A stretch of 64,000 nucleotides of DNA. Origin: Gloeomargarita sp. SRBZ-1_bins_9 (GTDB lineage Bacteria > Cyanobacteriota > Cyanobacteriia > Gloeomargaritales > Gloeomargaritaceae). This document shows positions 28,280 through 33,139 of this stretch, piece by piece. The translations under genes and the position numbers were made by a program. The stretch is taken from positions 1-64,000 of the forward strand of contig JAUQVX010000008.1 of NCBI GenBank assembly GCA_039794565.1, in the 5' to 3' direction. The notes beneath the pieces were generated by a model, which was not told the origin of the DNA, ran no database searches, and worked only from the letters and a program-made list of their open reading frames with translations. Within the stretch, counting starts at the first letter, position 1, and every line of letters starts with the position of its first letter.

Positions 28280-28738
28280 ATGGCTGCCGTGAAAGTTGTC
28301 AGTGAAAACCGGGAGGCCCGCCATCGCTATGACATCCTGGAAACCTACGAGTGCGGCATCGAACTCAAGGGGACGGAAGTGAAGTCGGTACGGGCGGGTA
28401 AGGTCAATTTGCGGGATGGCTTTGCCCGGTTCAAGGACGGGGAGCTGTATTTAATGAATGTGCATATTTCACCCCACGAGACGGCCAGCGCCTACTTTAA
28501 CCATGACCCCCGGCGGACCCGAAAATTGCTCATGCACCGGGCGGAACTGCGCAAACTGATCGGCAAGGTGGAACAAAAAGGACTAACCCTGGTGCCCCTG
28601 AAAATGTACTTCAAAGGGGATTGGGTCAAGGTGCTGCTGGGATTGGCCCGGGGTCGCAAGCTACACGATAAGCGCCAGGCCCTCAAGGAACGCGAGCAAA
28701 AGCGGGAAATCGAACGCGCCCTCAAACAGTGGGACTAA
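28280..28738 (+). CDS. smpB: SsrA-binding protein SmpB
   Basis: The 152-residue partner of tmRNA in trans-translation rescue of stalled ribosomes. It has the OB-fold core HRYDILETYECGIELKGTEVKSVRAGKVNLRDGFARFKDGELYLMNVHI and the basic tail KLHDKRQALKEREQKREIERALKQW. No ssrA gene was seen nearby. TATATT about 30 bases ahead of the ATG is the probable -10 box. Confidence 0.97.
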   Translation: MAAVKVVSENREARHRYDILETYECGIELKGTEVKSVRAGKVNLRDGFARFKDGELYLMNVHISPHETASAYFNHDPRRTRKLLMHRAELRKLIGKVEQKGLTLVPLKMYFKGDWVKVLLGLARGRKLHDKRQALKEREQKREIERALKQWD

Positions 28739-28742
28739 AAAT

Positions 28743-28787
28743 GTTACTTCTGATACAAATACTCAGGGGCCATCTGCTCCCTAATAA
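28743..28787 (+). promoter_or_regulatory. candidate NtcA-activated promoter of amt
   Basis: GTT-N8-TAC at 28743-28756 is one base off the NtcA consensus GTA-N8-TAC. A weak -10 (TAATAA, 28782-28787) follows about 25 bases later, close to the class II spacing of 22-23. NtcA control of ammonium transporters is established in cyanobacteria; use of this site is inferred. Confidence 0.45.
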
Positions 28788-28824
28788 AGGGATGACGCCA
28801 TGACGTGAACCGGTGTTCCGCAGT

Positions 28825-28908
28825 CAGATTGCGACCAGGCGCGAGGATTACCCATTCTGGCGCCCGGTCACGGGGGTCTGATCGCTTAGACCGGATGTTG
28901 TTTTTTTT
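28825..28908 (+). promoter_or_regulatory. structured amt leader with terminator-like hairpin
   Basis: Two hairpins precede amt. The first pairs GACCAGGCGC (28833-28842) with GCGCCCGGTC (28860-28869), with one A-C mismatch. The second pairs GGTCT (28875-28879) with AGACC (28888-28892) and is followed by eight T residues at 28901-28908, three bases before the ribosome-binding site. The GGTC and GACC arms are interchangeable between the two, so alternative folding is possible. It does not match the glnA-type RNA motif I know. Confidence 0.5.
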
Positions 28909-28925
28909 CGAGAGGAGTGTGACCC

Positions 28926-30473
28926 ATGCCAAGTGTTCGTTGGAAGCCTCGTCGCTTTCGCCTTAGTCCGCGTAAGTTGCGGTTTAGGCAGTTTTCTATT
29001 CCCCAGGGTTGGTTGGCCCTATTGGGGTATTTCTACTTGCCGCTCCTGATTCTAGGGGTGGTGGCCTGGGGAACCATGGTGGCTGCACAGACGCCCACAG
29101 CCCCTGCTGCGCCGATGGTTGATTTAAGCGGGGTGGAAAAGGACCTCAAGGAGTTGACAGACCAAGCCGGTAGCCTGAAAGTCGCTGTGGACACGGTCTG
29201 GGTGCTACTGTGCGCCTTCCTGGTGATTTTTATGAACGCCGGGTTTGCCATGGTGGAATCGGGTTTTTGCCGCCAGAAAAATGCCGTTAACATCCTGTCC
29301 AAAAACCTAATCGTCTTTGCCGTTAGCACCCTGGCGTTTTGGATTTTTGGGTTCGCCTTCATGTTCGGCGACGGCAACGAGTTCATGGGCCTGAACGGCT
29401 TTTTCTTGGCTGGTCCCGATAACAGTCCGGCAACTGGGGATGACTACCAAGGAATATTTAGCGCCTTGAACTGGACGGGGGTGCCCCTGTCGGCTAAGTT
29501 CCTTTTCCAAGTGGCCTTTGCGGGGACGGCAGCCACGATTGTTTCCGGGGCCGTGGCCGAGCGCATTAAGTACATTGACTTCCTATTTTTCAGTTTCATC
29601 CTGGTGGGGTTTATCTACTCCATCGGCGGTCACTGGGTCTGGGGCGGCGGTTTCCTAGCGGACTTGGGGTTCTGGGATTTCGCCGGTTCTACGGTGGTGC
29701 ACTCGGTAGGGGGCTGGGCGGCTTTGATGGGGGCCGCGCTCCTGGGGCCTCGCATCGGCAAGTATAGCGAAGCGGGGGTGAATGCGATTCCCGGCCACAA
29801 TCTAGGGTTTGCCACGTTGGGTTGCTTGATCCTGTGGTTGGGCTGGTTTGGGTTTAACCCCGGTTCGACCATGGCAGCGGACCCGGCGGCGATTGGTCAT
29901 ATTTGTCTCACAACCAACCTGGCAGCGGCTACAGGGGGCTTGGCAGCAACAGCCACCTCCTGGGCGCGGTTCGGTAAACCGGATTTGTCCATGACCATCA
30001 ACGGTATCCTGGCCGGTTTGGTGGGAATCACCGCCGGTTGCGCCTTTGTAAATGCGGCCTCGGCGGTCATCATCGGTCTGATCGCCGGGATCATTGTGGT
30101 GTTTTCCGTGTCCTTCCTGGATCAGATCAAGATTGATGACCCGGTGGGGGCGATTTCCGTCCACCTGGTATGTGGCGCCTGGGGGACGTTGGCCGTCGGT
30201 TTGTTTGCTCTGGGTCCCACCGGAGAACTCTACGGTGAAGATGCCGGTCCCGCGGCCGGTCTGTTCTTTGGTGGCGGCATTACCCAGCTCTGGCATCAGT
30301 TCCTGGGGGTGATCATTGTCGGCGGCTGGGTGGTGGTTACGGCGACGGTGGCCTGGCTAGTGCTCAAGGCCATCTTTGGCCTGCGGGTGCCGCCGGAGGA
30401 GGAGATCAAGGGCCTGGATGTGGGCGAGCACGCCATGGAGGCCTACGCCGGTTTTGTCAAGGAAGAACTGTAA
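28926..30473 (+). CDS. amt: ammonium transporter (Amt family)
   Basis: A 515-residue Amt channel with about 11 membrane helices. The family region [18 protein letters not shown], the phenylalanine gate and pore histidine region ([20 protein letters not shown]) and a conserved C-terminal tail are visible. The N-terminus has an unusually long arginine-rich start (about 25 residues) before a hydrophobic signal-like segment that ends near MVAAQT. AGAGGAG at 28911-28917 lies eight bases ahead of the ATG and decides the start. A rho-independent terminator follows. No glnB gene is adjacent. Confidence 0.95.
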
Positions 30474-30500: not shown

Positions 30501-30529
30501 GAGGTGTCGCAAGGCACCTCGTTTTTTTT
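30501..30529 (+). terminator. rho-independent terminator after amt
   Basis: GAGGTG (30501-30506) pairs with CACCTC (30515-30520) across a short loop and is followed by G and eight T residues. It lies 28 bases after the amt stop and separates amt from psbD. Confidence 0.85.
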
Positions 30530-30575: not shown

Positions 30576-30714
30576 TATAATTTAAGACAAACCGTGAAGA
30601 AACGTAAATTTCCTTATAGGGACGCTGTGGCCGGCAGAAGGCTACAGTGGAAACGAGCGGGAAATTTACCTTCCGGTTGACGGTCTCTATACATCTCGGT
30701 TTGGGAGAACGACG
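30576..30714 (+). promoter_or_regulatory. psbD promoter -10 box and structured 5' leader
   Basis: TATAAT at 30576-30581 without a good -35 box implies a start near 30588 and a leader of about 127 bases. Within it GTAAATTTCC (30604-30613) pairs perfectly with GGAAATTTAC (30660-30669), and inside that loop CTGTGGCC (30625-30632) pairs with GGCTACAG (30640-30647) with one G-U pair. GGGAG at 30703-30707 is the ribosome-binding site. Confidence 0.6.
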
Positions 30715-31770
30715 ATGACCATTGCGATTGGACGGGCCCAGGAGCGGGGATGGTTTGACGTCCTCGATGACTGGCTGAAACGGGATCGATTTGTCTTCGT
30801 AGGCTGGTCGGGTCTGTTGCTGTTCCCCTGTGCTTACCTGGCTTTGGGGGGCTGGTTAACAGGCACGACGTTTGTGACGTCTTGGTACACCCATGGGTTG
30901 GCCTCGTCCTACCTGGAGGGGTGCAACTTTTTGACGGCGGCGGTGTCCACGCCAGCGGATGCTTTCGGCCATTCTTTGCTGTTTTTGTGGGGGCCAGAGG
31001 CCAATTGGGATTTCACCCGCTGGTGCCAAATTGGTGGCCTGTGGACCTTCGTGGCGCTGCATGGGGCTTTCGGGTTGATCGGGTTCTGCCTGCGCCAGTT
31101 GGAAATTGCCCGGCTGGTGGGGGTGCGGCCCTATAACGCCATTGCCTTCACGGCGCCGATTGCGGTGTTCGTGTCGGTGTTTTTGATTTACCCCCTGGGG
31201 CAATCGAGCTGGTTTTTCGCCCCGAGCTTTGGTGTGGCGGGGATTTTCCGGTTCATCCTGTTCTTCCAAGGGTTCCATAACTGGACGCTAAACCCCTTCC
31301 ACATGATGGGTGTAGCCGGTGTGCTGGGGGGTGCGCTGCTGTGTGCCATCCACGGGGCGACGGTGGAAAACACCCTGTACCAAGACAGTGACTCCCCTAA
31401 CACCTTCCGGGGCTTCCAGCCGACCCAGTCGGAAGAAACCTACTCCATGGTGACGGCCAACCGGTTCTGGAGCCAGATTTTTGGGATTGCCTTTAGCAAC
31501 AAGCGCTGGCTGCACTTCTTCATGCTGTTTGTGCCGGTGACGGGTCTGTGGATGTCCTCCATCGGCGTGGTGGGTCTGGCGTTGAACCTGCGGGCCTACG
31601 ACTTCATTTCCCAGGAGTTGCGGGCCGCCGAAGACCCGGAGTTTGAAACCTTCTATACCAAGAACATCCTGTTGAACGAAGGCATCCGGGCTTGGATGGC
31701 GCCCATGGACCAACCTCACGAAAACTTTGTGTTCCCCGAGGAGGTATTGCCCCGTGGAAACGCTCTATAG
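30715..31770 (+). CDS. psbD: photosystem II D2 protein
   Basis: D2, 351 residues, binds with D1 the P680 chlorophylls, the pheophytins, QA and the non-haem iron. The sequence starts [20 protein letters not shown] and has five membrane helices. Iron and QA-region stretches are visible as [34 protein letters not shown] and the closing [11 protein letters not shown]. It carries its own leader and a promoter at 30576. Its last 17 bases are also the start of psbC. Confidence 0.98.
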
Positions 31771-33139
31771 TCCTGGTTTTGTGGTTGGTGGCCGGGACCA
31801 GGATTCCACCGGTTACGCCTGGTGGGCTGGCAACGCCCGGCTGATCGAACTCTCCGGTAAGCTGTTGGGGGCGCACGTGGCCCATGCGGGGTTGATCGTC
31901 TTCTGGACGGGGGCGATGACCCTGTTTGAACTGGCCCACTTTAACCCCAACCAGCCCATGTACGAGCAGGGATTGATCCTGTTGCCTCACCTGGCGACGT
32001 TGGGGTACGGGGTCGGCCCGGGGGGAGAAGTGGTGGATACCACCCCCTACTTTGTCACTGGGGTGCTGCACCTGGTGTCGTCGGCGGTGCTGGGCTTTGG
32101 TGGCCTGTACCATGCCCTGATCGGCCCGGACACCCTGGAGCAGTCTTTCCCCTTCTTCGGTTACGACTGGCGCGACAAGAACAAGATGACCACCATCCTG
32201 GGGATTCACCTGATCCTGTTGGGGTTGGGTGCCCTGCTGTTGGTGGTCAAGGCTATGTTCCTGGGGGGCGTGTACGACACCTGGGCGCCCGGGGGCGGTG
32301 ATGTGCGGGTGATTACCAACCCCACCCTGGACCCACGGGTGATTTTCGGCTACGTGTTGAATTCCCCCTTTGGCGGCGCCGGTTCGATTGCCAGTGTGGA
32401 CAACATGGAGGATGTGATCGGTGGCCACATCTGGGTGGGCTTCCTGTGCATTGCCGGCGGGATTTGGCACATCCTGACCACCCCCTTTGGTTGGGCGCGG
32501 CGGGCCTTGATCTGGTCGGGTGAGGCCTACCTGTCCTACAGCCTGGGCGCCCTGTCCTTGATGGGCTTTATCGCCTCCTTCATGGTCTGGTACAACAACA
32601 CGGTCTATCCCAGTGAGTTCTATGGGCCGACGGGGGCAGAGGCGTCCCAGGCCCAGGCCCTGACCTTCTTGATTCGGGACCAGAAGCTAGGGGCGAACAT
32701 TGCTTCGGCGCAAGGGCCAACAGGTCTCGGGAAGTACCTGATGCGCTCGCCCACTGGGGAAATCATCTTCGGGGGTGAGACCATGCGTTTCTGGGATTTC
32801 CGGGGACCCTGGCTGGAACCCCTGCGCGGGCCGAATGGTCTGGACCTGAACAAGCTGAAAAACGACATCCAGCCCTGGCAGGAACGGCGGGCGGCGGAAT
32901 ACATGACCCATGCGCCCCTGGGGTCCATTAACTCCGTGGGCGGTGTGGCCACCGAAATCAACTCGGTGAACTATGTGTCGCCTCGGGCCTGGTTGGCGGC
33001 GTCCCACTTCATCCTGGCCTTCTTTATGCTGATTGGCCACCTATGGCACGCGGGCCGGGCGCGGGCGGCTGCCGCCGGTTTTGAAAAGGGCATTGACCGT
33101 AAGGCCGAGCCGGTCTTCTCCATGAAGCCCTTGGATTAA
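31754..33139 (+). CDS. psbC: photosystem II CP43 antenna protein
   Basis: CP43, 461 residues, an inner antenna with six helices that also helps ligate the Mn4CaO5 cluster through its large lumenal loop. Translation starts at GTG 31754-31756 ([20 protein letters not shown]), overlapping psbD by 17 bases, the same overlap known for chloroplast psbD-psbC with GTG starts. A strong GAGGAGG at 31738-31744 inside psbD supports it. The lumenal-loop segment around [23 protein letters not shown] is intact. Confidence 0.98.

Follow-up and report, generated by a model that had tools for sequence, protein, structure and literature searches.

The amt locus and its upstream region

The DNA analysed here is a window of 64,000 nucleotides from a genome of Gloeomargarita, an early-branching cyanobacterial lineage that is of interest for this reason. 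The region under study is the gap of 187 nucleotides between smpB and the ATG of amt at position 28926, with both genes on the same strand (Table 1). For comparison we used seven species of the genus (G000, the species considered here, to G006) and one species of a sister genus (G007). By leader sequence the seven fall into two subclades, A (G000, G001 and G006) and B (G002 to G005). The elements of the leader follow the same order in all seven species: a GT-N10-AC motif in the context GATACAAAT, a spacer of fixed length and unconserved sequence, then CCTAATA and a near-invariant block, next a hairpin and RCCGG, and finally a T-rich stretch and AGGAG. The amt leader of G007 is unrelated to that of the genus.

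Table 1. Features of the smpB-amt region (positions within the window).
Feature	Positions	Strand	Remarks
smpB	28280-28738	+	same strand as amt
NtcA-like operator GTT-N8-TAC (28743-28756) plus AAAT	28743-28760	+	GT-N10-AC and GATACAAAT identical in all seven species of the genus
CCTAATA, presumed -10 region of the amt promoter	28780-28786	+	invariant in 7/7, fixed spacing from operator
5' block ATGACGYNAYGACGYRARCCGGTGTTCCG, presumed mRNA start	28792-28820	+	22/29 positions invariant in seven species
Long conserved hairpin, predicted, closed by CCGGU (28810-28814) with ACCGG (28890-28894)	28810-28894	+	folding z, covariation, covariance model R1
Upper arm of the long hairpin (10-bp stem of the first-pass annotation)	28833-28869	+	-21.7 kcal/mol, z -4.75; pairing kept as sequence changes
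GGTCT/AGACC alternative hairpin, not conserved	28875-28892	+	59% of pair cells kept across the seven leaders; -7.0 kcal/mol
T8 run in linker before ribosome-binding site	28901-28908	+	T-rich in relatives; only T4 in G006, T5 in G001
Ribosome-binding site AGGAG	28913-28917	+	invariant in 7/7 genus species
amt, ammonium transporter	28926-30473	+	TIGR00836, 436.8 bits, above cut-off

Two further observations concern amt itself. Besides the first copy, the species of subclade B harbor another amt paralogue with about 64% identity (loci L119 to L122), which is absent from G000. Downstream of amt, an intrinsic terminator is found on the plus strand at 30501-30528, consisting of GAGGTGTC, a GCAA loop and GGCACCTC, followed after one base by T8. 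With eight pairs and -12.8 kcal/mol it is the textbook example in this neighbourhood.

A probable NtcA-type promoter

The first group of features would correspond to a promoter. The GTT-N8-TAC site that the first-pass annotation had described as NtcA-like is present, and within it the GT and AC of GT-N10-AC are invariant in all seven species at a fixed spacing, the half site being GTT, not GTA. NtcA class II promoters are characterized by the consensus GTAN8TAC near -41.5 together with a -10 box of the form TAN3T, and NtcA is known to target amt genes (PMC3898017). The region upstream of amt resembles the canonical arrangement in that GT-N10-AC is found at a fixed spacing from a -10-like sequence before amt; it differs in the half site and in the putative -10 sequence TAATAA, which lacks the final T of TAN3T. 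The sequence fits an NtcA-type promoter for amt, with putative control by NtcA. This fit would place the putative start site of the amt mRNA at about 28791-28794, so that the invariant block would be the very 5' end of the transcript.

A near-invariant block at the presumed 5' end

The block comprises 29 nt with the consensus, written as RNA, AUGACGYNAYGACGYRARCCGGUGUUCCG. Across the seven species 22 of these 29 positions are invariant, compared to 19% of the third codon positions of smpB, 16% of the promoter spacer between the operator and CCTAATA, and 6% of the hairpin arm. The 41-nt pattern that runs from CCTAATA to CCGGTGTTCCG is found exactly once in each of the seven genus genomes; the 187 others of the class that were searched lack it. 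We note that in G002 to G005, with their two amt copies, the single occurrence per genome is located at the first copy.

The main rival to an RNA-level reading is a role of the block in DNA, either as the initially transcribed region of the promoter or as the operator of a regulator, in which case the hairpin would merely protect or space the mRNA and no switch would be involved. The block follows straight on from CCTAATA, which is invariant and -10-like, and an 8-bp direct repeat (ATGACGYN-AYGACGYR) that might serve as such an operator is visible in all seven sequences. The failure to find an expression platform, described below, points the same way. Against this, the block ends within the 5' strand of the closing stem, the two elements share CCGGTGTTCCG, and both hairpin ends retain CCGG, as fits pairing in RNA. 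A period of 8 bp is also unusual for a DNA operator. We consider a DNA element rather unlikely on balance, while giving it more weight than any of the other alternatives.

A long predicted hairpin whose pairing outlasts its sequence

The first-pass annotation had reported a 10-bp stem with one mismatch at 28833-28869. The stem is there, with nine of ten pairs formed between GACCAGGCGC (28833-28842) and GCGCCCGGTC (28860-28869) and a single A/C mismatch, and turns out to form just the upper arm of a more extended predicted hairpin at 28810-28894. The latter folds with -43.2 kcal/mol (z between -4.1 and -4.6); within the 64 kb, a z of -4 is attained by about 0.35% of 85-mers, so that this hairpin ranks among the top 0.35%. 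The entire amt leader folds only moderately better than its shuffled counterparts (z -1.9). Folded singly, all seven leaders adopt the same architecture, a hairpin of 71 to 85 nt closed by CCGGU and RCCGG. Relative to dinucleotide shuffles, the segment from CCGGU to RCCGG has z values of -4.1 in this species, -2.7 in both G001 and G006, -5.9 in G002, -7.2 in G003, -5.5 in G004, and -5.0 in G005. Once the fold of G001 is extended by 30 nt into the coding sequence, its closing stem does not dominate (probability 0.07). The conserved fold has no hairpin adjoining the T run, and the ribosome-binding region, itself conserved, is located 18 nt below the base of the hairpin.

Between the two subclades the sequence of the arm is almost wholly replaced, to the point of being hardly alignable, and its pairing is retained. 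In the alignment of the seven sequences, 90% of the pair cells are standard. Pair cells in which both partners have changed number 18, against 8.3±2.3 in shuffled alignments (none of 500 as high) and at most 9 with slid partners, for a structure that was derived from the same seven sequences; the invariant closing pairs are by themselves no proof of pairing. With only seven species in two subclades, the covariation mostly reflects one split and hence few independent events. Covariation within the subclades is weak, with 35 of 500 shuffles as high for the three sequences of one and about chance level for the four of the other, and we did not use this signal as an argument on its own. Conserved structure and compensatory changes, the marks of a structured cis-regulatory leader, are thus both found, in seven sequences with essentially one deep split. 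The first-pass annotation had named a lack of covariation among relatives as grounds for refutation. This outcome was not observed: covariation exists, in a hairpin (28810-28894) that is longer than and different from the one proposed.

A covariance model (R1) built from the seven genus leaders matches once in each of the seven genus genomes, all of which were used in the model, each time immediately ahead of amt. It has no match in 383 further genomes of the class. Comparison thus shows a predicted hairpin that is conserved, restricted to the genus, and fixed in its place before amt. The earlier suggestion of a structured and probably regulatory leader gains support from this hairpin.

An ordinary structured leader, devoid of specific function and conserved because of the short evolutionary distance, appears very improbable to us. 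Its occurrence in one genus only and the fact that many leaders fold would suit such a leader, but conservation of the block greatly exceeds that of the third positions of smpB and of its own flanks, and the arm has kept its pairing despite replacement of its sequence.

The small hairpin and the T run

The first-pass annotation interpreted the leader as an attenuator, in which the small GGTCT/AGACC hairpin (GGTCTGATCGCTTAGACC, 28875-28892) followed by T8 terminates transcription. All elements of this description are present ahead of AGGAG, although T8 begins only 8 nt after the hairpin (gap GGATGTTG, 28893-28900) and does not follow it directly, as the U run of a G+C-rich intrinsic terminator would. 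In the surrounding 4 kb there are 8 terminator-like sites, compared to 6.9±3.0 in shuffled sequence, hence the combination of hairpin and T run is at chance level. The small hairpin is also poorly conserved: five of the seven species have lost three of its seven pairs, and it fails in the sister subclade. The T run is reduced to TTTTGC in G006 and TTTTTC in G001, and comprises 7 to 8 T in G002 to G005.

In subclade A the small and the long hairpin are mutually exclusive since both use UCUGAU, which is paired with GUCAGA in the long fold. In the three species able to form it, the small hairpin is less stable than the best fold, which is the conserved one, by 3.3, 4.3 and 7.2 kcal/mol. The GGTC and GACC arms, said to be able to swap partners, could indeed do so in this sequence; the full set of four words is found in this species only. 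An antiterminator that excludes a terminator and is kept in the relatives was not found among the seven leaders, and we rejected the terminator/antiterminator switch on grounds of conservation and energy.

Like intrinsic-terminator attenuators, the leader has hairpins and a T run ahead of its gene; it differs from them in that the terminator hairpin is unconserved, the T run is not adjacent, and no conserved antiterminator exists. Attenuation in the wider sense, with either the small hairpin or the whole 85-nt hairpin and the T run ending transcription under some conditions, could invoke the T8 of this species, the T runs of subclade B, and the mutual exclusion of the two hairpins in subclade A. 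Given the 8-nt gap, the chance-level frequency, the unconserved hairpin, the T run broken in G006 and the energetic cost, we regard it as highly unlikely.

Relation to known RNA families

Glutamine riboswitches control cyanobacterial nitrogen genes (PMC6316151), and glnA RNAs have been reported before cyanobacterial ammonium transporters (PMC2864571). An Rfam scan of the leader, at gathering as well as permissive thresholds, returned nothing relevant. Specifically, neither the type 1 glutamine riboswitch (glnA RNA, RF01739) nor type 2 (Downstream-peptide, RF01704) matches this leader at E values up to 10, or the seven leaders at E values up to 1, which agrees with the earlier remark that the leader differs from the glnA RNA motif. 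The amt leader is like both types in being a structured 5' leader of a cyanobacterial nitrogen gene, and unlike them in that their covariance models match neither this leader nor its six relatives. A search across the taxonomic family found RF01739 in G007 only and in none of the seven genus genomes; RF01704 gave no match in the family, and none in the control genomes either. The RF01739 copy of G007 (locus L141, contig 193; 56 bits) is followed by a small ORF that, judged by eye, is DUF4278/gifB-like.

Other counterparts are the cyanobacterial psaA, psbNH and PhotoRC leader motifs (Weinberg et al. 2010; PMC2864571), which are likewise lineage-restricted candidate cis-regulatory structures whose mechanism is unexplained; they precede other genes, and no Rfam family matches the amt leader. 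A search of the open-access literature found no paper on this leader. We therefore describe it as a new lineage-specific candidate, judged by sequence comparison, in a field where RNA control of cyanobacterial nitrogen genes is already known.

It is conceivable that the leader is itself a riboswitch or nitrogen sensor, with glutamine, 2-oxoglutarate or a nitrogen-signalling protein binding the block and the hairpin base and thereby altering amt translation. The unchanging core, the drifting scaffold and the place before a nitrogen gene would be in line with this, as would the fact that glutamine riboswitches are known to precede ammonium transporters in cyanobacteria (PMC2864571) while RF01739 was not found in the genus. 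Since there is no Rfam match, only one locus per genome, no switch geometry, and a single simple hairpin that would make a poor metabolite pocket, we consider a sensor of this kind unlikely. Similarly doubtful is the more far-reaching proposal that the leader represents a new class of nitrogen-responsive RNA sensor, bound by a metabolite or protein, that replaces the glutamine riboswitch in the genus for control of ammonium uptake after initiation of transcription.

A putative post-initiation role of the leader

Several candidates for an expression platform were considered. In one of them, GGUGUUCC would sequester the ribosome-binding site through up to 8 pairs and a bulge, at a cost of 0.7 to 13 kcal/mol relative to the closed hairpin. 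Pairing of the 5' segment GGGAUGAC with GUCACCC beside the start codon is plausible in subclade B, but G000 and G001 have lost it with no compensating change, and the 5' partner is located partly upstream of the expected start site. A mini-ORF in the block was discarded because G001 has no AUG there. Likewise, no second site complementary to the block, as expected for a trans-acting antisense RNA, is common to the genomes. As the block does not stably sequester the ribosome-binding site, no expression platform was identified; together with the terminator, none of these candidates is convincing as a built-in platform.

The explanation that we favor, with confidence about evenly divided between its being right and wrong, is a genus-specific, structured, cis-acting leader that acts after initiation on amt translation or mRNA stability, with NtcA activating transcription. 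The NtcA-type promoter would start the mRNA at the position given above, and the transcript would open with the 29-nt block running into the single hairpin of about 85 nt, after which would come a U-rich linker and then the ribosome-binding site. The hairpin would serve as a scaffold whose arm is free to drift in sequence, and the block together with the hairpin base would constitute the part recognized by a factor, be it a protein, the ribosome or a metabolite. Such a recognition element on a scaffold would be expected to show just this combination, a core that stays constant and an arm that drifts. The output would most likely be control of amt translation or mRNA decay, rather than intrinsic termination. 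We infer the start site, function and mechanism of the leader from these patterns; as to its partner, the direction of control and a response of the leader to nitrogen, we can only offer guesses.

In cyanobacteria, nitrogen control by NtcA is supplemented by glutamine riboswitches and small RNAs. If the amt leader acts as an RNA control element, RNA-level control of ammonium uptake would have evolved more than once. Being short, located before a single gene and equipped with a near-invariant core, the leader is directly testable.

Other RNA-like signals in the neighbourhood

Two additional signals were observed downstream of amt. The Rfam model of IsrR, the antisense RNA to isiA, matches with 153 bits at 32168-32354 on the minus strand, antisense to psbC (ORF 31727-33139). 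This match is probably a false call driven by homology, psbC being a homologue of isiA. The psbD leader (30595-30714, plus strand) is strongly folded: its 85-mer at 30601 has a z of -5.0, a lower value than that of any other among the 1421 sampled across the window, and GTAAATTTCC is complementary to GGAAATTTAC. The psbD leader could itself be a regulatory leader.
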